DNA of 64,000 nt, taken from a virus. The position numbers and the translations under genes are program-made. Below, piece after piece: positions 16,436 through 39,718 of this stretch (position 1 is the first letter of the stretch; each line of letters starts with the position of its first letter). The notes under the pieces are model-generated. The model saw only the letters and a program-made list of their open reading frames with translations. It made no database searches and was not told the DNA's origin. Location of the stretch: positions 1 to 64,000 of IMG/VR virus record IMGVR_UViG_3300022752_005414. One strand, given 5' to 3'.

Positions 16436-17055
16436 GCGCCGCCAGTACCGCCTGTGGGCTTGCCTTCTGAGCCGGGTGCGTCAGGTGCGTACAGGAAATC
16501 TTGATCGTCCATATTGAAGTCAAACTGCGTATCCAACACTTCCTTCATGCGATCCACGTACTCTTGGCTGTAGTTCTTCTTGAGGAAGAGCATCGCGCGG
16601 TTGATGATGACCGACTCGACGTCAAGCAGCCGCTTATTATTCATCACTAAGCGAGCCAGCTTCTTTGTGAACAGGTCGATGTCTATCGCTGACTTAACGA
16701 GAGGCGCAGGCTTCAGATCATCTTTCATCTCTGAGCTGTCTTCGGGCTCAGGCGCCTCATCATCTGGAGCGGGAGCAGCAGGATCTCCTGTGAACAAGTC
16801 GGTGGGAGCCTCGTCCTGCTCATAGAGCAAACCTAAAAGCGACCTGCGCTTGAGCGCCTCAAAGATCATTTCCTCTTCTGACTCAGCCGCTTCGGCAGCT
16901 TCTGCCTCGAACTTAATGATGTATGAGTCGATCTGGTCGTCGACTGAGTCGAGTGAAAGGCGGGTGCTGCCTGTCATCTTATCAACAACTGACACACTTT
17001 CTACGTCGCTTTCCTCGTAGAGCCTGCGGCGCCTGCTTGTCTGCCTTGATCTCAT
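16432..17055 (-). CDS. Acidic putative virion protein (207 aa)
   Basis: Not recognised. Starts with an Arg-rich patch (RSRQTSRRRRLYEE), then helical acidic stretches (FEAEAAEAAESEEEMIFEAL), a Pro/Asp/Glu low-complexity linker, and a helical C-terminal domain (DLFTKKLARLVMNNKRLLDV, YSQEYVDRMKEVLDT). The arrangement recalls T4-like scaffold or prohead-associated proteins. Overlaps its neighbours by four bases on each side. Confidence 0.6.
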   Translation of the reverse strand: MRSRQTSRRRRLYEESDVESVSVVDKMTGSTRLSLDSVDDQIDSYIIKFEAEAAEAAESEEEMIFEALKRRSLLGLLYEQDEAPTDLFTGDPAAPAPDDEAPEPEDSSEMKDDLKPAPLVKSAIDIDLFTKKLARLVMNNKRLLDVESVIINRAMLFLKKNYSQEYVDRMKEVLDTQFDFNMDDQDFLYAPDAPGSEGKPTGGTGGA

Positions 17056-17753
17056 AGTGACCTCATTGCTTGTGCGACGCGCTCAGATTGCTTGAAGCGA
17101 TCCTCGATGACTCGCCAGTTGAGCTCCTTCATCATCGCGATGCTGTATGTCTTCACATCCCGGAGGTAATCCTTGTAGTAGGCGTGCTGCCACACGTCCA
17201 TCACGATCACTGGAAAGCACCCAACCGGGATCTCAATGCTGTGTAGATCGACGACAGCATTCATGTATGTCTGTGTGAAGAGGTTGTAGTATGTGACTGC
17301 CCAACCGCAGCGGGATGCCTGACAGCAGGCGAGGAAATCCTCCTGCCACTTGTCGAACGTGCCAAAGTCACGCTGGAGCCGCATGTAAGTGAGCGAGTCC
17401 ATTGTGATCTTGCTGTGTAGATCACTGATGTTGGCAAAGTAGAGCTCGTGGAGGAAGATCGCGTTCATATTGTACGTTTCATCGATCTTCAACGAGCGAA
17501 ACTGACTGTTGTTGGAATTAACTTCTGACCTATCGGCGCTGTCTAGTTCTGCGCTGATGCGGTTGAAGGCCTTGATGTAGTTTTCATACAGCTCAAAGTG
17601 AGCACGTTTTGTGCCAGCACTCTGGAACTCTGTGGGAAGATTGAAGGGCTTAGGGTCGGCAACAAGCGCCTCGTCGAGCCGCTTTGAGCTCTTGGCTGTC
17701 TCACCGCTTAAGCCAAGTGTCTGACGGACAATTTGTGTGATGTCTTTACTCAT
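17052..17753 (-). CDS. Fe/Mn superoxide dismutase-like protein with N-terminal extension
   Basis: Superoxide dismutase family: dismutes superoxide at an Fe or Mn centre. Seen: first ligand His region RAHFELYENYIKAFN, second AIFLHELYFANI, and the C-terminal ligands in VMDVWQHAYYKDYLRDV (D and H; the family's DVWEHAYY has E replaced by Q here). About 40 extra residues precede the domain and include MSKDITQIVRQTLGLSGE, similar to the Arg/Ile terminal tags on neighbouring proteins. Located between putative structural genes with four-base overlaps. The E-to-Q change touches the dimer interface position, so activity is uncertain. Confidence 0.85.
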   Translation of the reverse strand: MSKDITQIVRQTLGLSGETAKSSKRLDEALVADPKPFNLPTEFQSAGTKRAHFELYENYIKAFNRISAELDSADRSEVNSNNSQFRSLKIDETYNMNAIFLHELYFANISDLHSKITMDSLTYMRLQRDFGTFDKWQEDFLACCQASRCGWAVTYYNLFTQTYMNAVVDLHSIEIPVGCFPVIVMDVWQHAYYKDYLRDVKTYSIAMMKELNWRVIEDRFKQSERVAQAMRSL

Positions 17754-18065: not shown

Positions 18066-18476
18066 CTAAGTTTGAGTTATTTTTCTAACTTTTATCCCAG
18101 CGCCTGTGAGAATGTCAATACCGCTGAGATCTCTATAATCTTCGCCGTACACGAGCTCGTTGATACCTGCATTGATGATTGCTTTAGCGCACATCTTACA
18201 GGGCGACAACGTTACGTACATAACACGTCGCTTTAGGTTATTGTAGTCAAGCTTGATCAGCGCGTTCATCTCGGCATGGATAAAACCTGACTCGCCAGGG
18301 TCACTCGACTCTCTGCAATTTGGGCCACCTGCGTGGTCGCCGTTGTATCCTAGCGACAGCACTTGTGTGTTGTCTCCAGTGACTATCACAGTTCCGACCT
18401 TGTACTTGTCGTCTGCTGACCTGCGTGATACTTCACGTGCGATGTTCATCCACACTTCATCCCAGCCTGGACGCAT
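18066..18476 (-). CDS. dCMP/deoxycytidylate deaminase
   Basis: Zinc enzyme that converts dCMP to dUMP, feeding thymidylate synthesis. 136 residues. Seen: zinc and catalytic motif GFIHAEMNALIKLD (H and E), then the second zinc motif TLSPCKMCAKAIINAGI (PCxxC), and the substrate region LSLGYNGDHAGGPNCRE. Length fits short phage dCMP deaminases. It sits downstream of the DHH phosphoesterase and thymidine kinase, forming a nucleotide-salvage block. dCMP rather than cytidine is preferred from the family pattern. Confidence 0.92.
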   Translation of the reverse strand: MRPGWDEVWMNIAREVSRRSADDKYKVGTVIVTGDNTQVLSLGYNGDHAGGPNCRESSDPGESGFIHAEMNALIKLDYNNLKRRVMYVTLSPCKMCAKAIINAGINELVYGEDYRDLSGIDILTGAGIKVRKITQT

Positions 18477-19335: not shown

Positions 19336-19890
19336 TCACGCTTCGCGCGCGGTCGCATGATGTGACCAGCATCGAGGCTCATAGAGCTCAGAACCCCCAA
19401 CTGTGATCTCTGCGATGTCATTGATCTTCTTCTGTGTGTACGGTGCATCCTCGCCGCATACAACACAGACGGCAGTGCACTTCTCAACCTTTGTCGCCCA
19501 GGGAAGGATCTTCTCAATCTCTGGGAAAGAGTTGCAGCTGGCAGACATCTCGATCGACGACACAACGACAGACACGCCTCTACGGTAGATCTGAATGAGT
19601 GCGTCTGCAGAGCCGTCAATCATGAAAGCTTCGTCAACTGCTACAACGTCTGGTTCATATACGTCAACGTGGCGTAGTATCTCATCACCAGTGCTAACAA
19701 TGAGAGCTTCAAGCTTTCCACCGTTGTGTGTAGTAATCTCTTCTTTTGCATACCTTCTATCCATCTTTGGTTTAAATGCAAGGACGCGCTGGTTCTGATA
19801 TCGAAAGCGGTCGACCGCGCCGATCAGTCGTGTCGTCTTAGACGACATCATAGGCCCACAGAAGACAGTGAATGTTGGTGGGATGCGCAT
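19336..19890 (-). CDS. tdk: Thymidine kinase (TK1 type)
   Basis: Phosphorylates thymidine with ATP. 184 residues from ATG 19890, which overlaps the upstream stop (TAATG). Seen: P-loop FCGPMMSSKTTRLI (usual GPMFSGKT), DEAxF-like VAVDEAFMID, a lasso region, and a C-terminal zinc ribbon with CTAVCVVCGE and RCWSHH. Adjacent to dCMP deaminase, DHH and kinase genes that process deoxynucleotides. The G to S change inside the P-loop is unusual but the rest is canonical. Confidence 0.9.
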   Translation of the reverse strand: MRIPPTFTVFCGPMMSSKTTRLIGAVDRFRYQNQRVLAFKPKMDRRYAKEEITTHNGGKLEALIVSTGDEILRHVDVYEPDVVAVDEAFMIDGSADALIQIYRRGVSVVVSSIEMSASCNSFPEIEKILPWATKVEKCTAVCVVCGEDAPYTQKKINDIAEITVGGSELYEPRCWSHHATAREA

Positions 19891-20882
19891 TACTTGAGCT
19901 CCCACCAGGCGAGTGTCTTCTCAAGCCCATCCCAGAACTTAACTAGTGGTTGGTATCCGAAGTCACGATTTGCTGCTGTCCAGTCACCCAGTGTGTGCTT
20001 AACATCACCTGGACGCCAGGGAGCGTGACGAACTTCAACTGTTGGAAATGCTCCTGTGAGGTGCTGGAGGATCTCAAGGTTTGTCGTCCGCTCACCACAG
20101 CAGATGTTGTACCCTTTGCCCATGAGGCGGTTCGGCGTCTTGGCAGCAAGAATATTGGCACTTACGACGTTGTCAACATGACACATGTCACGAGATTGAG
20201 ATCCGTCACCATCGGATCTAAGAGTGCGCCCGCTCTTGATTGCATCACACCAAGCAGACACGGCTGTGGAATAAGGTGAGTCGCCATACTGGCCTGCACC
20301 GAAAACGTTGAAATAGCGTAGGCAGACGGTGTCTAGATCATAGAGCTCACCAAATAGTCGACAGAAATCCTCAAGAGCACTCTTCTGGAGGCCGTATGGA
20401 GATCTTGGGTTACGTGGTGTCTCTTCGGTTGTCGGCAGTGCCTCCGTGTTACCATAGACAGCTGATGATGATGCAACAACCACCTTGTCGACGTTGCCGA
20501 CGCAAGAATGGAGAAGCTCAATGCTTCTCAGAAGATTGACGTCTGTCGTCTTCGTAGGCTGCTCGACAGAGTAGGAAACTTGCGGAACAGCTGCCTGGTG
20601 GAAGACGATGTCGTATTGCTTCCGAGCAATTCTGTCTAAGATGACTGGATGCGCAAAGTCGCACTCATGCACGTAAACTTCTTTCGAAGCTCTCTGCTTC
20701 TGTGCCTCATAGATTTCTGCCATGCCCGGCAGAAAAACTCGATAGTTCAAACCATCAAGAAGGTTGAGATGACCGTTCGACATGTCGTCTACTACGTCAA
20801 CTGTCCAGCCATCATCGACAAGCGCGTGCGTCAGATTTGACCCAATGAAGCCGGCGCCGCCCGTTACTAATGCTCTCTTCAT
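19890..20882 (-). CDS. NAD-dependent sugar-nucleotide epimerase/dehydratase (extended SDR)
   Basis: Extended short-chain dehydrogenase acting on a nucleotide sugar, resembling UDP-glucose 4-epimerase. 330 residues. Seen: Rossmann VTGGAGFIGSN at residues 6-16, the catalytic Ser region VVASSSAVYG, YGLQK catalytic Tyr/Lys, and the C-terminal RYFNVFG and RDMCHVDNV motifs that bind the sugar nucleotide. Phages use such enzymes to alter host surface glycans or to make sugars for DNA or virion decoration. A second SDR lies across the dnaE locus at 26724-27704; no glycosyltransferase is visible in the window. Confidence 0.9.
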   Translation of the reverse strand: MKRALVTGGAGFIGSNLTHALVDDGWTVDVVDDMSNGHLNLLDGLNYRVFLPGMAEIYEAQKQRASKEVYVHECDFAHPVILDRIARKQYDIVFHQAAVPQVSYSVEQPTKTTDVNLLRSIELLHSCVGNVDKVVVASSSAVYGNTEALPTTEETPRNPRSPYGLQKSALEDFCRLFGELYDLDTVCLRYFNVFGAGQYGDSPYSTAVSAWCDAIKSGRTLRSDGDGSQSRDMCHVDNVVSANILAAKTPNRLMGKGYNICCGERTTNLEILQHLTGAFPTVEVRHAPWRPGDVKHTLGDWTAANRDFGYQPLVKFWDGLEKTLAWWELK

Positions 20883-20899: not shown

Positions 20900-21808
20900 T
20901 TAATGCGTAGGTTGAAAGATTACATGCGCTGAGTCGAGTGTGAGATTAAACCTCACGGGTGTCTCAACGGTGAGGCCGAGCTCACGTCGGGCTGTCTGAC
21001 CCATGTGACCGATGAAGTGGATGTCATTTGGGAAGATACGCGACACCTCAGAAGATCTGCACACGATGTTGGCGTGAAGCACACCGCCACGATACATGAA
21101 GTGGGCATAGGAGATGCAACTATCCTGTGTCATGACAAACCGTCGCGACTTGAGATCCTGCTTCATCTCGTACTCATTCTGGCCAGCCAGCTCTGCTTGG
21201 ATCTTTTCAATAAGCTTCTTGCGTGTTGCTTCGTAGTACTCAAGCTCAGGTTCGTAGAAGAGAGCCTTTGTGCTGAGTGTCTTGAAGTCAGTGTCTTCCC
21301 ACGTCATCTTTAGGAAAGGCGCCTCACCAGACAGCTTGATCCTCGCATGATCATGCGTCATCTCAGCGAGACGTCCATATGTCTGACGTTCGTAGTTTAG
21401 TACCCACCGTGCAATGTCATCACTGGAAGCTTTTGATTGCGCGCAAACTAAGACGTTAGGGTACGCGCTGAGACGTGTCACCTCATCCTCGAAGATTGTG
21501 TACAACTTCTCAATCGTCTCTTGATCTTGAAACTCGTCGCCTCTTTCTGCAAGGCGATCCTTGATGGTGGTCAGTGGGGGCATGAGCACAACGATCACAT
21601 TGTTCAGATCGCTGATCTCTTCCAAGAGGAGCTGCCGCCAGTGGTCAACATCTCTTCCGTACATGACTGCATAGCAGAGCATAGAAAGTGCGCTTCGATC
21701 GTGGATGTTCCACTTGAAGCCTGTTGCACGATGCAAGCTCCTAAACAACGTGGTCTTGCCGCTGCAATCCACACCTTCTAGCACAACTGTCTTTAGATTG
21801 AACTTCAA
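20900..21808 (-). CDS. P-loop (d)NMP kinase fused to a thymidylate synthase/dCMP hydroxymethylase-fold domain
   Basis: 302 residues, two domains. Residues 1-150: thymidylate-kinase-like P-loop LEGVDCSGKTTLF (about 10-22) with a lid-type RLAERGDEFQD. Residues 185-302 resemble the C-terminal half of ThyA: Cys231 sits exactly 20 residues before Arg251 (RSSEV), the spacing of catalytic Cys146 and phosphate-binding Arg166 of E. coli ThyA. Pro260 and Asp262 fall at the Pro175/Asn177 positions, and SAHV carries His295 for His207. Asp in place of Asn177 is the feature linked to dCMP-type substrates. The N-terminal half of ThyA is missing. It directly follows the dnaE C-part. Confidence 0.7.
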   Translation of the reverse strand: MKFNLKTVVLEGVDCSGKTTLFRSLHRATGFKWNIHDRSALSMLCYAVMYGRDVDHWRQLLLEEISDLNNVIVVLMPPLTTIKDRLAERGDEFQDQETIEKLYTIFEDEVTRLSAYPNVLVCAQSKASSDDIARWVLNYERQTYGRLAEMTHDHARIKLSGEAPFLKMTWEDTDFKTLSTKALFYEPELEYYEATRKKLIEKIQAELAGQNEYEMKQDLKSRRFVMTQDSCISYAHFMYRGGVLHANIVCRSSEVSRIFPNDIHFIGHMGQTARRELGLTVETPVRFNLTLDSAHVIFQPTH

Positions 21809-21809
21809 A

Positions 21810-22883
21810 TTACACCTCGATCTTTCGCATTTTCATTGCTGAGGTTGACATACCCCAGTTAGCATCATATTCTACCTCAGCTAGCCACATAGTGTATCGC
21901 TCGGGCTCTTCTTTAAATGTACCCCACACGCGAATTCTTGCAGTGTCGCTGTTATTGTCAACAGCAAATGCTGTGTAGAATGTCTTGCCGTTCTTTGTCT
22001 GCTTCTTGACCCAATCCTGGGCACAGAACCAGACAACTGCTTTCGATCCTGGTGAGATCTGCATTGCAGACGGGACGTTAGAACGATCAATCTTTGCCAT
22101 CACGGTGGGTGGGAATAGCAGTTCTTCTGACGCCGTGGTCAAGATCTCTACGAAGTTCTTGATCTTCTCGTAGCGGTTCCAATCTTGGACATCTGCCGTT
22201 GCCTCGATCAACTGGTCGATGATCACAGGCTCCTTGCCGTGCTCCTTTACCCACTTCTTGGTGGCCGTCTTGGTCATTCCTGTGCGACCCTTGCGGAGCG
22301 TGTCATAGTTCTCGATGATCATCTTGTGTAGCTGATTGTGGTTGTTGAGACGCTCGTCCTTGAACTCCTGCAGTGAACCTAGGCTCTCAGTGAGGATCAG
22401 CGACTCAAGGCAGCTCTTGTTCAGCTTGGAGTGGCGCCACTCACCTTCTGCATCGAACAGGAGGTCATCCAGCGCACGGTAGGGCCTGTTCTCCATGATC
22501 TCACTCACTGCTGAGTCGCCCAGGCCCTTGACAGATGTCAGCGGTGGAACGAATGCCTGGATCTCATCAGAGTACGTCCACTCTGTTCCTGAGTAGTTGA
22601 TGTCAACCTGCGAGAACTTGTAACCAATTGCCTTGATCTCCGCGATAGCCTTTGCCAGCCCCTTGGGATTACCTGTCTCAGACTGCAGGATCGTTGCCAA
22701 CCACTCCTTCTCGTAGTGGGTGTGTAGCCAACCTGCGTAGTATGAGTCGATCGCGTAGGACACGGAGTGTGAGTTTGACGTCAACGCACCGTTTGACAAA
22801 TAGAACTGATGATCTGGGTGCGCGACTTCAAGGTCGTATGCTCTCTGCATCCCGACAAACTCAATCGATGTAATTGCGCTCAA
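21810..22883 (-). CDS. dnaE: DNA polymerase III alpha, C-terminal part, preceded by split intein IntC
   Basis: 357 residues: 37 residues of C-intein followed by a 320-residue C-extein. The C-extein begins SHSVSYAIDSYYAGWLHTHY, continuing the alpha-subunit sequence FNK/SHSV, then HhH-type helical segments (LTSVKGLGDSAVSEIMENRP) and an OB-fold near the end (AVVWFCAQDWV, FYTAFAVDNNSDTARIRVWG). Translation starts at TTG 22883, with GGAGA nine bases upstream inside the 3' end of the homing endonuclease. Splicing with the product of 23691-26717 would give an alpha subunit of about 1187 residues. Confidence 0.88.
   Translation of the reverse strand: MSAITSIEFVGMQRAYDLEVAHPDHQFYLSNGALTSNSHSVSYAIDSYYAGWLHTHYEKEWLATILQSETGNPKGLAKAIAEIKAIGYKFSQVDINYSGTEWTYSDEIQAFVPPLTSVKGLGDSAVSEIMENRPYRALDDLLFDAEGEWRHSKLNKSCLESLILTESLGSLQEFKDERLNNHNQLHKMIIENYDTLRKGRTGMTKTATKKWVKEHGKEPVIIDQLIEATADVQDWNRYEKIKNFVEILTTASEELLFPPTVMAKIDRSNVPSAMQISPGSKAVVWFCAQDWVKKQTKNGKTFYTAFAVDNNSDTARIRVWGTFKEEPERYTMWLAEVEYDANWGMSTSAMKMRKIEV
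22773..22883 (-). other. Split intein C-part (IntC)
   Basis: 37 residues ending QFYLSNGALTSN before Ser+1 of the extein. Block F RAYDLEVAHPDHQFYL and block G ALTSN/S are visible: terminal Asn, penultimate Ser rather than His (as in cyanobacterial DnaE inteins, ASN/C), and Ser+1 as the second nucleophile. It has its own start codon and Shine-Dalgarno, so it is a separate polypeptide. Confidence 0.88.
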
Positions 22884-23907
22884 GGTACATTTCTCCGATT
22901 AGAACTAATTTAGGTTCTTTTTTCTCTATTGCTTCGCAGATCAATTTTACGCATGCATCGTCGAATTTACCACCGTTTTTGTACGTAAACATGTCGAAAG
23001 ATACACGTATAACAACGTAACCTTCGTCAACTAGCACGCGATTAAGCTCTTGATCTTTATTCCTGGTGTTTGAAAGTCGGTCATCTTTTGTTAGATTGAC
23101 AAAATGTCGTGGGCCATCAAATTCAATGACAATTTTGCTGACTGCATCAAGTATGTCTATCTGGCGGGTTCCTGACTTAACAGAAGTAAATTTTCCTATT
23201 CTCCTAATTTGCTGACCGCGCTTAAAACGATTAGGATATAGCTTGTCAACCAGCTCAAAGAGATTTTTCTCTGGTACACTTTGGTAAGCTGTAATCATCT
23301 TTGTAACACAAGACTGATAAAATACGTCAGGGTTTTCTTCTCTCCACTTTTTAAGTGTAGCTGCTCGACGTTCCTGTATGTCGCGTCTTGCTGACGTCTT
23401 CTTTGCAGTATCAGATGATCTTTTTCTGAAGTTGTCTGTCTTATTTAACTTCGTTAAGTTGTCTCTTCTTGCATTACGGGCCGTTGCAGAGTTCATGATA
23501 CCTTTCGATATGCCCGATGAGAGTTTACCTTTCCACTCAGATAAATCATCTCCTGCTATTTTTGCCCGATTTATCCAGTCATAGTTGTTTGATGATTTGT
23601 ACTTCTGTTTAGATGCCGAACAAACAACTGGGCCATAATTCTGCTCGTATTCTGTCTTAGAAATTCCATGTGCTTTCAAGATATGAGATTTCAGGCTGCG
23701 TCCGAGATGTCCGCAAATTTGACACCTGACATAGTCAGTTCTCTCAGAATGTCGTTCAAGCCATGCTGCACATTTGAGATTGTGTGCGTTGATCTGCTTT
23801 TCACTGAATTTCTTCCCACAGTCGCAATCTCTAACTCTTCCTGCAGGATGTACCACAGTGGCATCATCTCTCCGCATGTCGTCCTGAACTTGTGATGCAT
23901 TGAACAC
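22861..23907 (-). CDS. Homing endonuclease in the break of a split-intein dnaE (Vsr/DUF559-like)
   Basis: 348 codons from GTG 23907 (AAGGAGG 12 bases upstream); ATG 23877 is the alternative start. N-terminal zinc fingers: CDCGKKFSEKQINAHNLKC (28-46) and RCQICGHLGRSLKSHILKAH (61-80), the latter like the finger of the other endonuclease in this window. The middle is basic. The C-terminal nuclease core reads DILDAVSKIVIEFDGPRH (251-268), then DQELNRVLVDEGYVVIRVS, as in Vsr/DUF559 endonucleases of the EDxHD group. It overlaps IntN by 217 bases and IntC by 23, in other frames. AT-rich relative to dnaE. Likely cuts intein-less dnaE alleles. Confidence 0.85.
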   Translation of the reverse strand: MFNASQVQDDMRRDDATVVHPAGRVRDCDCGKKFSEKQINAHNLKCAAWLERHSERTDYVRCQICGHLGRSLKSHILKAHGISKTEYEQNYGPVVCSASKQKYKSSNNYDWINRAKIAGDDLSEWKGKLSSGISKGIMNSATARNARRDNLTKLNKTDNFRKRSSDTAKKTSARRDIQERRAATLKKWREENPDVFYQSCVTKMITAYQSVPEKNLFELVDKLYPNRFKRGQQIRRIGKFTSVKSGTRQIDILDAVSKIVIEFDGPRHFVNLTKDDRLSNTRNKDQELNRVLVDEGYVVIRVSFDMFTYKNGGKFDDACVKLICEAIEKKEPKLVLIGEMYLERNYID

Positions 23908-26717
23908 CTTATTTCTTCGCCTCCTTCAAGTGTAATCTTGAAGATAGGAACTTCACCGTGGTCATGATTGGCAACAACTTTGACAAAGATGTCGCACTGC
24001 GACTTTTCATCTCGTGTTTTGACGTAGCACCCGGGTACAACCTTGCCAATGTTAACTGCACGAATAAAGTTTCCATCTCTATCGTACATATCAACATCCT
24101 GATCATGCTGTAAACTTTTATTAAACCCGTACACCGAGAACGCCTCGATCGTGTCCCAGAGCGGGCCAGTCACCTTCTCAGGCACACCGTGCAGTGCCAG
24201 AGCACCGTCGATGAACTGCTTCCGCGCTGCCTCCTTCTCAGATGACTTCTTGCCCAGCGTGTCCAGCGACTTCTTGACCAGCGTCTTGCGGAGCTGGTCA
24301 GCCTCGCCAGGAGAGAACCCTGCCAGCTTTTGGGCCAGCATCATGAACTGTTCCTGAAAGACAACGTAACCGAACGTGGGCCCTAGCACTTCCTGGATGA
24401 CTGGATGGTCGTACTTGATCTTCGAGGCATCCCGCTTTGCCTGGACGTACAGCTTGTGGACGTTTGCCTTCAGTGGGCCTGGTCGGTAGATTGCAGTCAG
24501 TGCTGCCAGCTCACCGATGTTTGTAGGCTTCGCATCGAGGCAGAACTTACGTGCACCGTCTGCCGTGAACTGGAAGACACCGACGAACCGACCCTCGTGA
24601 TAGACGTGCTTCCAAACCTGCTGGTCATCCTGCTTGACCGTGCGGCAGTTGAGATGCTCATCGAAGAAATCCTTGATCTGACTAAATGTCGGGTTCTTGA
24701 CACCCTGCTTGATCAGGATCCGCTTGATGCAGTTCTCTACGTCCTTGAGCAGCGTTAGGCCGAGGAAGTCGAACTTGAGGAAGCCGTTGTCCTCCAGGTT
24801 GCGGAAGTTCATACCTTCTGTCCACGGCGTCTGCAATTCACCGCGAACACCGATGATGGGCATGCCTTCAGCCAACGCCTTGGGTTCTGCAACGAGGACG
24901 CCGCCTGCATGACGACCGATCGAACGGTTCTCCATGAAGAGCGCATTAACGTGCTCCTCCACCTCGGGGTACTTCGTCATGAATGCATTGTAAGCAGGTG
25001 AGTACTTCATGCAGTCATCGTGCTTGAGGACGAAGACCGACTTCTCCTGGTCATCATCCTTAGCGTGAGGCATGACTTCATCCTGGAGTGGTCCTGTCAC
25101 CGCATTGACCTCATCGAACGGGACGTTGAAGAACTTCGCGACGTCCTTCACCAGCGACTTCAGCTTCAGGGTGTTGAAGTTTGAGACGGGAATGACAGCG
25201 TCGTCACCGAAGAGCTCACGTGCCGCGTCAATAAGAACGTCACGATCACCAGCATCGGAGTCGATATCGGGCCAAGACACACGATGCCGACCAAGGAAGC
25301 GGTTCCAGAGGAGGCCGAACGGAAGCGGATCGATCTGAGTGATGCCGAGGATGTAGTTGACGAGAGATCCGGGAGCAGATCCACGACCTGGGCCGAGGAG
25401 AGTGCGCTCCTTAGCACGGTGGAAGATCTTGTACATCGTGAGGAAGTAAGAGGCGTGACCCAGGTGCTTAATGTCTGAGAGTTCTTCCTTCACGCGGGCC
25501 ATGTACTCGGGCTTTTCATGTAGCCCCATCTCGCCCATCCGCTCCTTGACGAGATCCACCAGCTGCTGGAACTCTGTCTTCTCAGGCGTGGCGAAAACTG
25601 GGAGCTTGGCGCCTGTATCGACCCAGACGTCCTCACACTGCTGCCATGCGATGTCGTGCGTCCGCTCGATCGCATCTCGAACCAGCTCCTCGTTGCCTTG
25701 ATAGAATGTGTAGGCATCAGTGTGTCGGTTGAACTCCTCCCACATCTGCTCGGCGTTCTTTGGGTAGAGCTCGCACTTCAGCTCATCGAATGCTGGGAGG
25801 GGCTTGGGTTCCTCCTTCGCGTTCATCCACGCCAACTTCTTGTAGAGCTCACGTGTCTTCCACTTATCAGGAGTGGGATAGTGACTATCGCAGGTCGCCA
25901 CCAGCGGGACGCCTGTGCTCTTGTGCAGATCGATCAGGTGCCGATTGACGTCGTGCTGCGCCTGCAGCTTGTTGAACTGGATCTCGAGGTTGAAGTTCTC
26001 GAGGCCGACGGCGTCCACAAACCGATCCGTCAGGTTCTTGAGCTCGTGCTGGATCTCAGCATCTGACTTGTGCATCGCCTGTCCGCGGAGGACGCGGTTC
26101 GCCATGATGCCACCGATGCAGGCCGTGCTGACGACAAGCCCTTCACCGTGCTGCTTGAGCATGTCGAAGTCAATCCGTGGGAAGCGATAGTACCCCTCCT
26201 TGAATGACCGCTTGACCAGCGTGAAGAGGTTGGACAGGCCACGCTTGTCCTTAGCAATCACGACAAGGTGGTAGCGACGCTTCCACTCGTCATCCTTCAC
26301 TTCGAGAGATGACGCGTCCTTTGTCTCATCCTCATTCTCGATGATGTGACCCGCCCCTGCCTCATCGTCGGCGTCGATGTCAGTCGCCTCCTTCGACTTC
26401 TTCTCAGAGCGGGCAGCAGCGACTGCATCCTTGTGATCCTGGTACTGCTCTGCCCAGTTCTTCAGCGATGGAACGAAGTAGAACTCGACCCCGTTCAGCT
26501 GGCGGTACTTCTGCCCTGCCTTCTTCATCTTCTTGGCATGTGACTGCGCGTGGGCAAGGCCGCTGCCGTTGCCGTGGTCAGTCAGCGCCCAGGCATCCAT
26601 GCCGTTCTTCAGCACGAAGTCGATGTGCTGTGCAGGATAGCCGAGCCCGTCCATGGTCGAGAAACCGGAGTGGGCATGAAGGCCCACAAACCGATCCGGA
26701 GGTCGAATGATACTCAT
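23691..26717 (-). CDS. dnaE: DNA polymerase III alpha, N-terminal part, ending in split intein IntN
   Basis: 1008 codons. Residues 1-867 are the N-extein of a DnaE-type replicative polymerase: PHP domain FVGLHAHSGFSTMDGLGY and ALTDHGNGSG, an acidic insertion near 115-150, the GPGRGSAPGSLVNYILGIT motif, the catalytic WPDIDSDAGDRDVLID aspartates, and GFSPGEADQLRKTLVKK. The extein ends VYGFNK; Ser868 begins IntN. The last 41 codons after IntN lie in the frame overlapped by the endonuclease and are probably non-functional tail. DnaE replicases are unusual in T4-like phages; no proofreading or clamp subunit is visible in the window. Confidence 0.92.
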   Translation of the reverse strand: MSIIRPPDRFVGLHAHSGFSTMDGLGYPAQHIDFVLKNGMDAWALTDHGNGSGLAHAQSHAKKMKKAGQKYRQLNGVEFYFVPSLKNWAEQYQDHKDAVAAARSEKKSKEATDIDADDEAGAGHIIENEDETKDASSLEVKDDEWKRRYHLVVIAKDKRGLSNLFTLVKRSFKEGYYRFPRIDFDMLKQHGEGLVVSTACIGGIMANRVLRGQAMHKSDAEIQHELKNLTDRFVDAVGLENFNLEIQFNKLQAQHDVNRHLIDLHKSTGVPLVATCDSHYPTPDKWKTRELYKKLAWMNAKEEPKPLPAFDELKCELYPKNAEQMWEEFNRHTDAYTFYQGNEELVRDAIERTHDIAWQQCEDVWVDTGAKLPVFATPEKTEFQQLVDLVKERMGEMGLHEKPEYMARVKEELSDIKHLGHASYFLTMYKIFHRAKERTLLGPGRGSAPGSLVNYILGITQIDPLPFGLLWNRFLGRHRVSWPDIDSDAGDRDVLIDAARELFGDDAVIPVSNFNTLKLKSLVKDVAKFFNVPFDEVNAVTGPLQDEVMPHAKDDDQEKSVFVLKHDDCMKYSPAYNAFMTKYPEVEEHVNALFMENRSIGRHAGGVLVAEPKALAEGMPIIGVRGELQTPWTEGMNFRNLEDNGFLKFDFLGLTLLKDVENCIKRILIKQGVKNPTFSQIKDFFDEHLNCRTVKQDDQQVWKHVYHEGRFVGVFQFTADGARKFCLDAKPTNIGELAALTAIYRPGPLKANVHKLYVQAKRDASKIKYDHPVIQEVLGPTFGYVVFQEQFMMLAQKLAGFSPGEADQLRKTLVKKSLDTLGKKSSEKEAARKQFIDGALALHGVPEKVTGPLWDTIEAFSVYGFNKSLQHDQDVDMYDRDGNFIRAVNIGKVVPGCYVKTRDEKSQCDIFVKVVANHDHGEVPIFKITLEGGEEIRCSMHHKFRTTCGEMMPLWYILQEELEIATVGRNSVKSRSTHTISNVQHGLNDILRELTMSGVKFADISDAA
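23817..24116 (-). other. Split intein N-part (IntN)
   Basis: About 100 residues from SLQHDQDVDMYDRDGNFIRA to LQEELEIATV. The first residue is Ser instead of the usual Cys. Block B is EEIRCSMHHKF, with Ser for the usual Thr and the conserved His three residues on. The length matches known IntN fragments. The insertion point FNK/SHS lies in the same conserved segment used by cyanobacterial split DnaE inteins. Confidence 0.85.
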
Positions 26718-35334: not shown

Positions 35335-36285
35335 TTAAATGCCTCGAGTGTTCTTGTAGTTGGTGACGATCGTATCAATTTCACCAAGCACTTCGTTCCA
35401 GAGCTTGCGGAAGTGTGGGACGCCGCCTTCAGTGCCGTTCATGTCGTCACGTGTTGCCTGATAGATCGTGTCGTTCGGGTGGTAGGTGAGGTGCTTCTCA
35501 CTATCCTCATCGGGCCAGTAGAGGTTTGTACCAGTACCGTTCCGGAATGTCTTGATGTAGTGCCAAGCAGGCTCGCGAAGGTTGATCGCCACATGTGCCT
35601 CAGGGAAAACCTTGAGGATCTCACGTGCCATGAGTGCTGCAAGCATGTTGTCCTCCTCAGGCTGGATCTGCTTGTCCTGACGCTGCTTGATGAAACCAAA
35701 TGCGTCGCGGATGTTCATACGCATGTAGTAGAACGTCTCGAGGCACTTGGGCAGGATGTGACGTGCGTCCATGAGACTGATCTGCTTGGAGTCGACCATG
35801 TCAGTGTAGAGCTGCTTTGCCTCCTGGACGTGAGCTTGCCAACGTGCATAGAACTCTGGGCTGTTCTCAATTGAGCCAGGAACAAGGCTGCGCTCGTGAG
35901 AGAGCCATCGGTCACCAGTACACTGCGCTGCGAAGGAGCCTGCACGATGACGGATGAGATGGGTCACAGTCTGTGTGTCGATGCCGCCGACGAGGAAGGT
36001 GAGGCCGATCAGCTCCATCGCTGCTGGGAGCGCACGACCTGCGAAGACGTCCTCAAGTGTCTTGCTAAGCTCGGCCTCAGTTGCGTCCTTGTAAGGAACG
36101 TGCTGGTCTGCCCAGGTCGACTTAACGAAGCAGTAGACAGCCTGGCGGATCGACTTAGGATCTGGTGCATCAACAAGCTCGAGCTTGAGTGCATCGAGGC
36201 TATTGACGAACTCTGTAGTTGGCTCTTCGCCGAAACGAATTGCCATAGGAAGGGTAATAGGCTTGAGATTAGTGTCTTGTGGCAT
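35335..36285 (-). CDS. ThyX-like flavoprotein with altered signature motif
   Basis: 316 residues of the flavin-dependent thymidylate synthase fold. The signature reads LIRHRAGSFAAQCTGDRWLS: the RHR is intact but the canonical RHRxxSxNxxSxR is replaced by RHRxxSxxxxCTGDR, two residues longer. Downstream RYxLPR-like DARHILPKCLETFYYMRMN and FIKQRQDKQIQPEEDNM match a phage ThyX-like subgroup. A canonical ThyX is also encoded (39050-39718). It may be an additional thymidylate synthase or may make a modified pyrimidine. Start overlaps the upstream gene by 17 bases. Confidence 0.8.
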   Translation of the reverse strand: MPQDTNLKPITLPMAIRFGEEPTTEFVNSLDALKLELVDAPDPKSIRQAVYCFVKSTWADQHVPYKDATEAELSKTLEDVFAGRALPAAMELIGLTFLVGGIDTQTVTHLIRHRAGSFAAQCTGDRWLSHERSLVPGSIENSPEFYARWQAHVQEAKQLYTDMVDSKQISLMDARHILPKCLETFYYMRMNIRDAFGFIKQRQDKQIQPEEDNMLAALMAREILKVFPEAHVAINLREPAWHYIKTFRNGTGTNLYWPDEDSEKHLTYHPNDTIYQATRDDMNGTEGGVPHFRKLWNEVLGEIDTIVTNYKNTRGI

Positions 36286-37219
36286 TGATTTCCTCGTGAA
36301 TTTGATTTAAATGTGCAAGTAGTTGATCGGGATCTTCGTATCGAATGACACCAGAAGTGCCAGCCAATGATGCATTATAAGACAGCGCAGGTGAGAGTAC
36401 AAGCAAACCGTGATTTGCGTACTCTGCAGCGTGCTTTGGTGAGTCGTCGATGCATGCTGCAACGTGTCCGTAGAACTGGCTCTGCACGATCCACCTGTAC
36501 TTCTCACCGCTGAAGGCAAGGCCGTCGAAGGGAACCCGCATCTCTGAGATCCAGTGGTATGTGTCGTAGAGGCAGATCAAGTTCTGATCGGGCCTTGCAG
36601 TCAGCAACTGAACCCAAAAACCCATGTCTTGGGCTGCTTTTAGCACAGCACGGACGCCTTCGATCGGATCAATCTTACGGAGCCTGCGCTCACTGATGAA
36701 ATCCTTAAACGACGCCTCTGGATTGATCCCGCGTTCCTTCAAGGGAGAGGACGCATAGTACTCAGGATAATCAAGAGGAATGTCAATGTCATGACTGTCT
36801 CGAAGCCACTCAAAGTAATCCTTCCTGAAGTGTGCGATGACATCATCGACATCGACAATTAATACAGGACGACCATCCCACTTTGCGTTTTCGACTCGAT
36901 GACGCATGTGCAGGAAGGTGTCCTTGTCGTTGAAAGCTGTCTCAACTTCATCAGCTTCATACCCCCACACATTCATGATTGCTAGGAGGTACCGCATCAC
37001 ATCAATTGACTCGTACAGGATCTTCTCCCGATCCGGTGTCCGTCGATTTGCGTGGTGATCTTTGAAGTTGATCGAGCTGACGAGGTCAGCCACTTCAGCG
37101 TGGAGTGCCAGTGCAAATGACTTTGTCATCTCCTCACGCTTGTCGTCGTCAAACTGAGACGAGTCATAGAAGAGATCAGAGAACTCCTTCTGACGCTGCA
37201 GTATCTTCTTGATGTCCAT
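36269..37219 (-). CDS. All-alpha NTP pyrophosphatase (dUTPase/MazG-like) fused to HAD-type nucleotidase
   Basis: 316 residues, two domains. Residues 1-110: helical NTP-pyrophosphatase with the ExxD pairs ALHAEVADLVS (E42, D45) and LYESIDVMRYL (E70, D73), as in dimeric dUTPases and MazG. Residues 118-316: HAD phosphatase with VLIVDVDDVIAHFRKD (motif I D123, D125), LLTARPDQN and AACIDDSPKHAAEY, resembling 5'(3')-deoxyribonucleotidases. Together these could degrade unwanted dNTPs to nucleosides. The stop of the preceding paralog overlaps the start. Substrate (dUTP, dCTP or damaged dNTP) not determined. Confidence 0.8.
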   Translation of the reverse strand: MDIKKILQRQKEFSDLFYDSSQFDDDKREEMTKSFALALHAEVADLVSSINFKDHHANRRTPDREKILYESIDVMRYLLAIMNVWGYEADEVETAFNDKDTFLHMRHRVENAKWDGRPVLIVDVDDVIAHFRKDYFEWLRDSHDIDIPLDYPEYYASSPLKERGINPEASFKDFISERRLRKIDPIEGVRAVLKAAQDMGFWVQLLTARPDQNLICLYDTYHWISEMRVPFDGLAFSGEKYRWIVQSQFYGHVAACIDDSPKHAAEYANHGLLVLSPALSYNASLAGTSGVIRYEDPDQLLAHLNQIHEEINATRH

Positions 37220-38629: not shown

Positions 38630-39053
38630 CTTGACTTTCCTCCTTTCCGTTAATCCACTTCCAGTAGTTCTTCAACGCGCCGTCCTTGGGCTCTGGGATC
38701 TGTGCCCAGCGGTGCAGGCAGAAGATGTCGTAAGCTGCTGCAGCGTACTCACCCACGCCTGGTAGAGATCTTACATCAACCCCGTCCCACTGCACGTACG
38801 CCTGCGATAGCTTGACCAGCGTCTTGCTTCGTCGATCTGCAAGTCCAAGAATAGCGATCATGTCGCGGATCTCGGCAGGATCTGCATGGGATGCTGCCGC
38901 TGCTGTGGGCCATCGATCGAAGAACTGCCACATGTAGGGCTCTGCGACGACACGCTTCGTTAGATTACAGAAAATGCAGACGACCAGGACACGCCATGGA
39001 TCGTACTGCACTGTCTCTTGGATCAGGTTGTAGGGTGACTTAGGTGCGTTCAC
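38622..39053 (-). CDS. HhH-GPD DNA glycosylase, MBD4-like
   Basis: 143 residues, GTG start overlapping the thyX stop. QETVQYDPWRVLVVCIFCN, TKRVVAEPYMWQFFDRWP, ILGLADRRSKTLVKLSQAY, the helix-hairpin-helix LPGVGEYAAAAYDIFC (97-112) and the Asp124 region EPKDGALKNYWKW follow the glycosylase domain of vertebrate MBD4 nearly step by step. That enzyme removes T or U opposite G; Asp124 is the expected catalytic residue. No Fe-S cluster cysteines as in Nth/MutY. Next to dUTPase, ThyX and Nei genes, it suggests a uracil or deaminated-base repair role. Confidence 0.85.
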   Translation of the reverse strand: MNAPKSPYNLIQETVQYDPWRVLVVCIFCNLTKRVVAEPYMWQFFDRWPTAAAASHADPAEIRDMIAILGLADRRSKTLVKLSQAYVQWDGVDVRSLPGVGEYAAAAYDIFCLHRWAQIPEPKDGALKNYWKWINGKEESQVA

Positions 39054-39718
39054 ACACTATGGTAGAATATTTCTTTAGGTTTTACAACATAACCAAACGC
39101 TTCTAGCGTGTGCTTGAACGGGTTACCAGGAATGTCACGGACAAGCTGGAGCATCTGCTCTGATAACTCACGAACCTCGAGCTGTGCATCGGGCTTCATG
39201 CGTAGCTCGAGGAAGTGGTGGAACGAGCGCCAGTTGAACATGATGTCCATCGTGATCTGGTTGCCGTAAGGAAGGTAGAACCGGGCACTTTCTTTGGCCC
39301 GCTTGCGGCTCATGCCGTCCTCGACGAAGCGTTCAAGGGCATCGTGGTAACGCATGAGTGCGTCCTCCATGAAGGCGATGTACTTCGCCTGCTCTTCGAG
39401 TGACCAATCCTTCGGGAGGTAGTACTTGTCATCTCGAAGCTCCTTGTACCGCGCTGATTCGCCGTTGATCGAGACACCGATCCTGTGCTTCAGGAGATGG
39501 ATGTGAGTTGCAGCATCGACTGTGACCAGGAAGTGCAGGCTTGACTTCTCGAAGGGTGTCTCATGTCCATTCTCGGCCAGCATTTTCAGGAGAGTTGGGA
39601 TCCTTCCACGTTTCTCCTCCGTCAGATCCCTGCTGGTGCTCGTCCATGCCGAGAGGGCGTGAGCCTCGTCTCCACCGTAGTAACCGATCAATTCTACCTT
39701 GTTGTCCTGAAAGGGCAT
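39050..39718 (-). CDS. thyX: Flavin-dependent thymidylate synthase (canonical ThyX)
   Basis: Converts dUMP to dTMP with FAD, NADPH and methylene-tetrahydrofolate. 222 residues. Signature HLLKHRIGVSINGESARYKE matches the (R/K)HRxxSxNxxSxRY motif. Upstream NGHETPFEKSSLHFLV and downstream ARFYLPYGNQITMDIMFNWR complete the active site. Start ATG 39718 lies inside the 3' half of the DUF2061 gene. Central enzyme of the phage thymidylate pathway with dCMP deaminase and dUTPases. Confidence 0.95.
   Translation of the reverse strand: MPFQDNKVELIGYYGGDEAHALSAWTSTSRDLTEEKRGRIPTLLKMLAENGHETPFEKSSLHFLVTVDAATHIHLLKHRIGVSINGESARYKELRDDKYYLPKDWSLEEQAKYIAFMEDALMRYHDALERFVEDGMSRKRAKESARFYLPYGNQITMDIMFNWRSFHHFLELRMKPDAQLEVRELSEQMLQLVRDIPGNPFKHTLEAFGYVVKPKEIFYHSV

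Follow-up and report, generated by a model that had tools for sequence, protein, structure and literature searches.

The closest described counterparts of the protein reported here are members of the thymidylate synthase (TS) superfamily that act on cytosine nucleotides. The gp42-like gene of Mosigvirus p000v specifies 5-hydroxy-dCMP (5-hodCMP) synthase activity, and the product of this TS-superfamily enzyme is a precursor of arabinosylated cytosine (PMC13390438), while in TS itself replacement of Asn by Asp at residue 177 shifts the substrate from dUMP to dCMP (PMC8670742). The PDB entries 9iqu and 9iqc fall in the same protein family as the Mosigvirus p000v gene product, and the 5-hodCMP synthases or dCMP hydroxylases of this group (AfhB, 9iqu, 9iqc, and those of Mosigvirus and relatives) are stand-alone proteins of about 230 aa which carry Asp at position 177 and have kept the Y94 (FYGP) segment. 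The T4-type dCMP hydroxymethylase (gp42, 1b49) also has the dCMP-type Asp, but is folate-dependent and longer than the domain reported here, and in T4 the kinase gp1 is encoded about 49 kb away; according to its record annotation gp1 phosphorylates HMdCMP and not dCMP, which may serve as a precedent for a kinase of modified dCMP. The CMP hydroxymethylase MilA (5b6d, 5jp9), a TS-superfamily protein of about 320 aa from antibiotic synthesis, uses CMP and has no kinase fused to it. In ThyA, W80, Y94 and the C-terminal lid belong to the folate side of the active site. The nucleotide kinases YorR (2axp, 3kb2) and TMPK stand alone, without a TS-type domain.

In the 64,000 nucleotides analysed here (the window), which derive from a 65-kb viral contig, a kinase and a TS-superfamily domain are joined in a single gene (Table 1). 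The limits of this ORF had been read exactly from the sequence, and it lies on the minus strand (the plus strand is filled with stop codons at this position). Its TTG startcodon is backed by a relative (L005) with ATG at the same site, and it starts immediately past the stopcodon of the C-terminal exon of the gene for the PolIII alpha subunit.

Table 1. Positions in the window of the fusion gene, its domains and active-site residues, of neighbouring genes, and of a divergent ThyX gene
Feature	Position	Strand	Support or occurrence
dCMP deaminase	18066..18476	minus	65/79 loci
Thymidine kinase	19336..19905	minus	67/79 loci
NAD-dependent nucleotide-sugar epimerase (GalE/TviC-like)	19890..20882	minus	64/79 loci
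Kinase/TS-superfamily fusion gene	20900..21808	minus	302 aa, TTG start
Compact domain of the TS superfamily (residues 158-302, ~145 aa)	20903..21337	minus	profiles, predicted fold
H295, invariant; ThyA His207, in SAH motif shared with 5-hodCMP synthase	20924..20926	minus	
D262, invariant; the Asp of dCMP-acting enzymes in place of ThyA Asn177	21023..21025	minus	
R251, invariant; phosphate-binding Arg166	21056..21058	minus	
C231, invariant; nucleophile Cys146	21116..21118	minus	
R222-R223, invariant; ThyA Arg126/Arg127, phosphate ligands from other dimer subunit	21140..21145	minus	
E188, invariant; matched in alignment to the catalytic Glu60 of T4 gp42/Glu58 of E. coli ThyA	21245..21247	minus	
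Residues 1-140, TMPK/YorR-type P-loop dNMP kinase domain	21389..21808	minus	phrog_761, PDB fold matches
P-loop, residues 11-19 (EGVDCSGKT)	21752..21778	minus	E11, G12, D14, G17, K18 invariant 74/74
Divergent ThyX, QCTGDR replacing NExSxRY	35335..36285	minus	10/10 large fusion-carrying contigs

A search with the window protein alone returned five contigs. Loci were also fetched via the adjacent PolIII gene, which gave diverse homologues encoded directly behind PolIII, and their alignment led to relatives encoded in about 140 viral contigs or stretches. The search patterns were taken from the kinase half and would miss unfused versions of the C-terminal domain; conserved-peptide scans using the C-terminal domain alone gave no further relatives. 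All conservation figures refer to 74 non-redundant sequences, mostly with 30-38% identity to the window protein. Three queries run against 50,697 phage records brought up no such fusion, none of them being matched over 80% of its length, and our literature search found no paper on such a kinase-TS fusion. The carriers form a widespread and uncultured group of viruses, probably phages; the PolIII alpha subunit of the window has about 29% identity to the polymerase of the best-ranked cultured phages. The sole near-full-length homologue among the genome contigs (L201:5001-5885, PBHZ01000014.1) belongs to a 26-kb contig that binning assigned to a Euryarchaeota MAG; this contig is possibly viral, with Euryarchaeota as a possible hint at the host.

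The N-terminal half had been read as resembling thymidylate kinase, and this was borne out by a match to the phrog_761 thymidylate kinase family (E 5.5e-14) and by fold matches in the PDB to YorR (2axp/3kb2) and Aquifex TMPK (2pbr), while Pfam gave only generic AAA/TMK matches. With YorR and TMPK it shares the kinase fold, the P-loop (ExxDxxGK[TS]) and the DR motif, and it also has the LID Arg residues; next to the P-loop positions listed in Table 1, residues D37, R38, R52, R85, R89, G90 and D91 are invariant in all 74 sequences. The score against the NCBIfam dTMP kinase equivalog TIGR00041 was 21.2 bits, below the cut-off of 83.25, and the kinase is therefore not assigned to dTMP.

Standard domain models overlook the TS part of the protein: PF00303 (ThyA) has no match in it at E≤10, and DUF1599 was looked for and not found. 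Comparison of profiles with profiles did place the resemblance to ThyA beyond chance (probability 91-96%, E 1e-6 to 2e-9), with hhalign probabilities of 95-96% both for the dCMP hydroxymethylases, at E 2.3e-9, and for the hydroxylases, at E 4.1e-8. An AlphaFold2 model built with 15 sequences (pLDDT 91.8, pTM 0.87) superseded an earlier one from four sequences (pLDDT 61), which was too weak, as was the fold search made with it. The best fold matches of the new model are TS-superfamily structures, and in a Foldseek search of the PDB these were headed by 9iqu ('phage HY126 dCMP hydroxylase-AfhB', E 3.2e-6, probability 1.00) and 9iqc ('monooxygenase dependent on riboflavin with dCMP and FAD', E 9.3e-6, probability 1.00), followed by TS and by MilA with CMP/dCMP, and by YorR/TMPK for the kinase half. 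The TM-scores of 0.35 (9iqu) and 0.29 (9iqc) are low, which is to be expected with normalisation by the whole query and a two-domain protein set against one-domain targets. In BFVD the leading matches were T4-type dCMP hydroxymethylases, TS and phage kinases.

The active-site residues named in the sequence-only reading (C231, R251 20 residues further on, D262 another 11 on, and H295) were all confirmed, as was the loss of Tyr209, the position of which is taken by I297 in the window protein and by I, L, R or V among the homologues. Nine residues of the C-terminal half are invariant in the 74 sequences (E188, R222, R223, C231, R240, R251, S252, D262 and H295), with S293 (73/74) and E162 (72/74) nearly so, and the spacing is equally constant: 9 residues from R222 to C231 and 11 from R251 to D262 in every homologue, and 20 from C231 to R251 in 71/74. 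The Cys, the three Arg residues and the His of the ThyA site are all present, while the Asn177 that confers dUMP specificity is always Asp. R240, an Arg in the IRDGKL turn, is common to the hydroxylase, gp42 and MilA and is missing from E. coli ThyA. Together, the profiles, the predicted fold and the invariant catalytic residues strongly support a fusion of a kinase with a TS-superfamily domain, and D262 and the nearest profiles, which are those of dCMP-acting enzymes, do the same for a dCMP-type site; we hold this assignment with high confidence.

Which branch of the superfamily is nearest was addressed with several profile searches. Against PDB sequences, the C-terminal profile matched T4 dCMP hydroxymethylase best (E 0.0027); the dCMP hydroxylase entries 9iqu/9iqc came next (E 0.14), with TS only at E>1. 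In a panel scored with the family profile and including shuffled sequences, a relative of 5-hodCMP synthase (L171) was best at 33.5 bits and T4 gp42 had 22.1, whereas the 9.4 bits of E. coli ThyA, and the 4.2 and 2.2 bits of two further TS, were at the level of the decoys, of which the best reached 8.6 bits; most dCMP-type phage enzymes scored above all shuffles. Hydroxylase and hydroxymethylase are not told apart by sequence profiles, the hydroxylase profile being the better one in 30 of the 74 sequences. Further likenesses to 5-hodCMP synthase are the S-A-H motif without Tyr209, the Arg of the IRDGKL turn and a short C-terminal tail, and with gp42 the Cys, Arg, His and Glu60 positions can be aligned.

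The domain had also been described as half a ThyA of which the first half is absent, and this is wrong: in the predicted domain the Arg-Arg strand comes only after a first helix at the N-terminus, a long strand and a second helix, and the alignment with the dCMP hydroxymethylase profile spans 158-162 columns and puts E188 on Glu60 of gp42. What has changed is the distance between the landmarks, with 34 residues from E58 to R126 against 68 in E. coli ThyA (34 missing), 9 from R126 to C146 against 20 (11 missing), and a tail after His207 of 7 residues against 57, which makes this a tail-less TS fold with an internal deletion. As a consequence W80, Y94 and the C-terminal lid are gone, so that the parts lost from the TS fold are mostly those of the folate side, while the known hydroxylases and hydroxymethylases retain the Y94 segment. 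The catalytic Glu58 of ThyA is likely to have been retained as E188, an assignment from alignment which is qualified by E188 falling one residue off the equivalent Glu in the hydroxylase profile. We also considered that the helix with E188 might be the one preceding Arg126 in ThyA, and rejected this since the gp42 and hydroxylase alignments put E188 on or beside the Glu58 position.

The sequence-only reading had proposed that the polypeptide could make and phosphorylate a modified pyrimidine nucleotide, or bind one, and this remains the leading inference. Support for it comes from the genes for stand-alone enzymes: in 20/20 loci examined, the 5-hodCMP synthase gene has a gene for a TMK-like kinase no further than 2.3 kb away, on one side or the other, compared with only 2/47 loci for gp42, although loci within each group are related and the counts are not independent. 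The fusion also suggests why 5-hodCMP synthase genes of T4-like phages sit near a kinase gene. A bifunctional synthase and kinase for 5-modified dCMP, in whichever version, is the probable function, with an even chance for the version in which dCMP is hydroxylated to 5-hydroxy-dCMP. The C-terminal domain, probably as a dimer, would bind dCMP, with R222, R223, R251 and S252 holding the phosphate and D262 reading the cytosine. Addition of Cys231 to C6 would then activate C5 to take the new group, for which we slightly favour a hydroxyl, as with the phage dCMP hydroxylase, over a hydroxymethyl. The loss of the W80/Y94 region and of the tail speaks against this reading of the domain, as does the failure to recognise a DNA glycosyltransferase in these contigs (see below). 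The TMPK-type kinase would phosphorylate the modified product to the diphosphate, from which modified dCTP could be formed for the viral DNA. Of a more tentative nature, and rather doubtful as a whole, is the proposal that a minimal TS-superfamily enzyme of about 145 aa, working without folate, makes and hands 5-hydroxy-dCMP or another C5-modified dCMP directly to its own fused kinase, giving modified-cytosine genomes in a large uncultured group of PolIII-encoding viruses. If active, the TS domain would to our knowledge be an unusually small catalyst for its superfamily, it would show which parts of the TS fold are needed without folate, and it would predict cytosine modification in the viruses represented by the roughly 140 contigs.

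The loss of the folate-side segment and tail and the replacement of Y209 would also fit a TS-type domain which has no C5 chemistry, and which senses or captures dCMP in order to regulate or feed a plain dNMP kinase for dTMP or dCMP, with ThyX proteins able to supply dTMP. We consider this unlikely, as pure binding would not require an invariant Cys and Glu, and C231, E188 and R240 have not changed in any of 74 such diverse sequences. Less likely still is a bifunctional enzyme which, like T4 gp42, transfers a hydroxymethyl group from methylene-tetrahydrofolate to give 5-hmdCMP: while T4 gp42 is the best match among PDB sequences, the gp42 group has the slightly better hhalign E-value and gp1 offers the matching kinase activity, most of the folate-contacting parts are missing, position 254 (the equivalent of Asp169) varies between D, N and E, and in 45/47 loci gp42 has no kinase gene as neighbour. 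The intact kinase motifs and the silence of Pfam on the TS domain might suggest that the protein is a plain viral thymidylate kinase which carries the remains of a decaying TS and plays no part in modification. This is very improbable, since the catalytic residues are invariant and the C-terminal domain is under purifying selection, with dN as low as that of the kinase domain (dN 0, dS 0.09 compared with L002).

The fusion gene is part of a conserved cluster for nucleotide metabolism, with PolIII (77/79 related loci) and the thymidine kinase, dCMP deaminase and sugar epimerase genes of Table 1 as its neighbours, while ThyA (PF00303) was found in none of 14 related contigs. The window also encodes a nucleoside deoxyribosyltransferase and two all-alpha NTP pyrophosphohydrolase domains, one of them fused to a 5'-nucleotidase. 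At 36269-37219 (minus strand), adjoining the divergent ThyX, an all-alpha domain of the dUTPase type is joined to an NT5C 5'-deoxynucleotidase. The divergent ThyX, in which RHRAG[ST]xAAQCTGDR takes the place of RHRxxSxNExSxRY and a Cys is conserved, may be another modified-pyrimidine enzyme; of the 10 large contigs, some also have a canonical ThyX (39050-39718) and others do not. Glycosyltransferases were considered as support for glycosylated cytosine and rejected for lack of a consistent presence, with TAGT in 0/10 contigs, GT2 in 5/10, and no consistent DNA glycosyltransferase recognised, nor any in the 164-kb nearest relative.

Upstream of the fusion gene, the PolIII alpha gene is split (21810-26717, minus strand): its N-terminal part ends in an intein-like segment, and a homing-endonuclease-like ORF (22861-23907) is followed by a C-intein-like start and the C-terminal exon, an arrangement suggestive of gene fracture and a split intein. 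The same conserved cluster contains the C-terminal domain of an Fe/Mn superoxide dismutase (17052-17753, minus strand; Pfam 5e-15) in 52/79 loci. Finally, a cupin-like ORF, recognised by eye and without NCBIfam match (L098:9910-10359), and an IMP-dehydrogenase-like ORF are located near the fusion gene in 22 and 21 related loci, respectively, and could have a role in the supply of nucleotides or nucleotide sugars.
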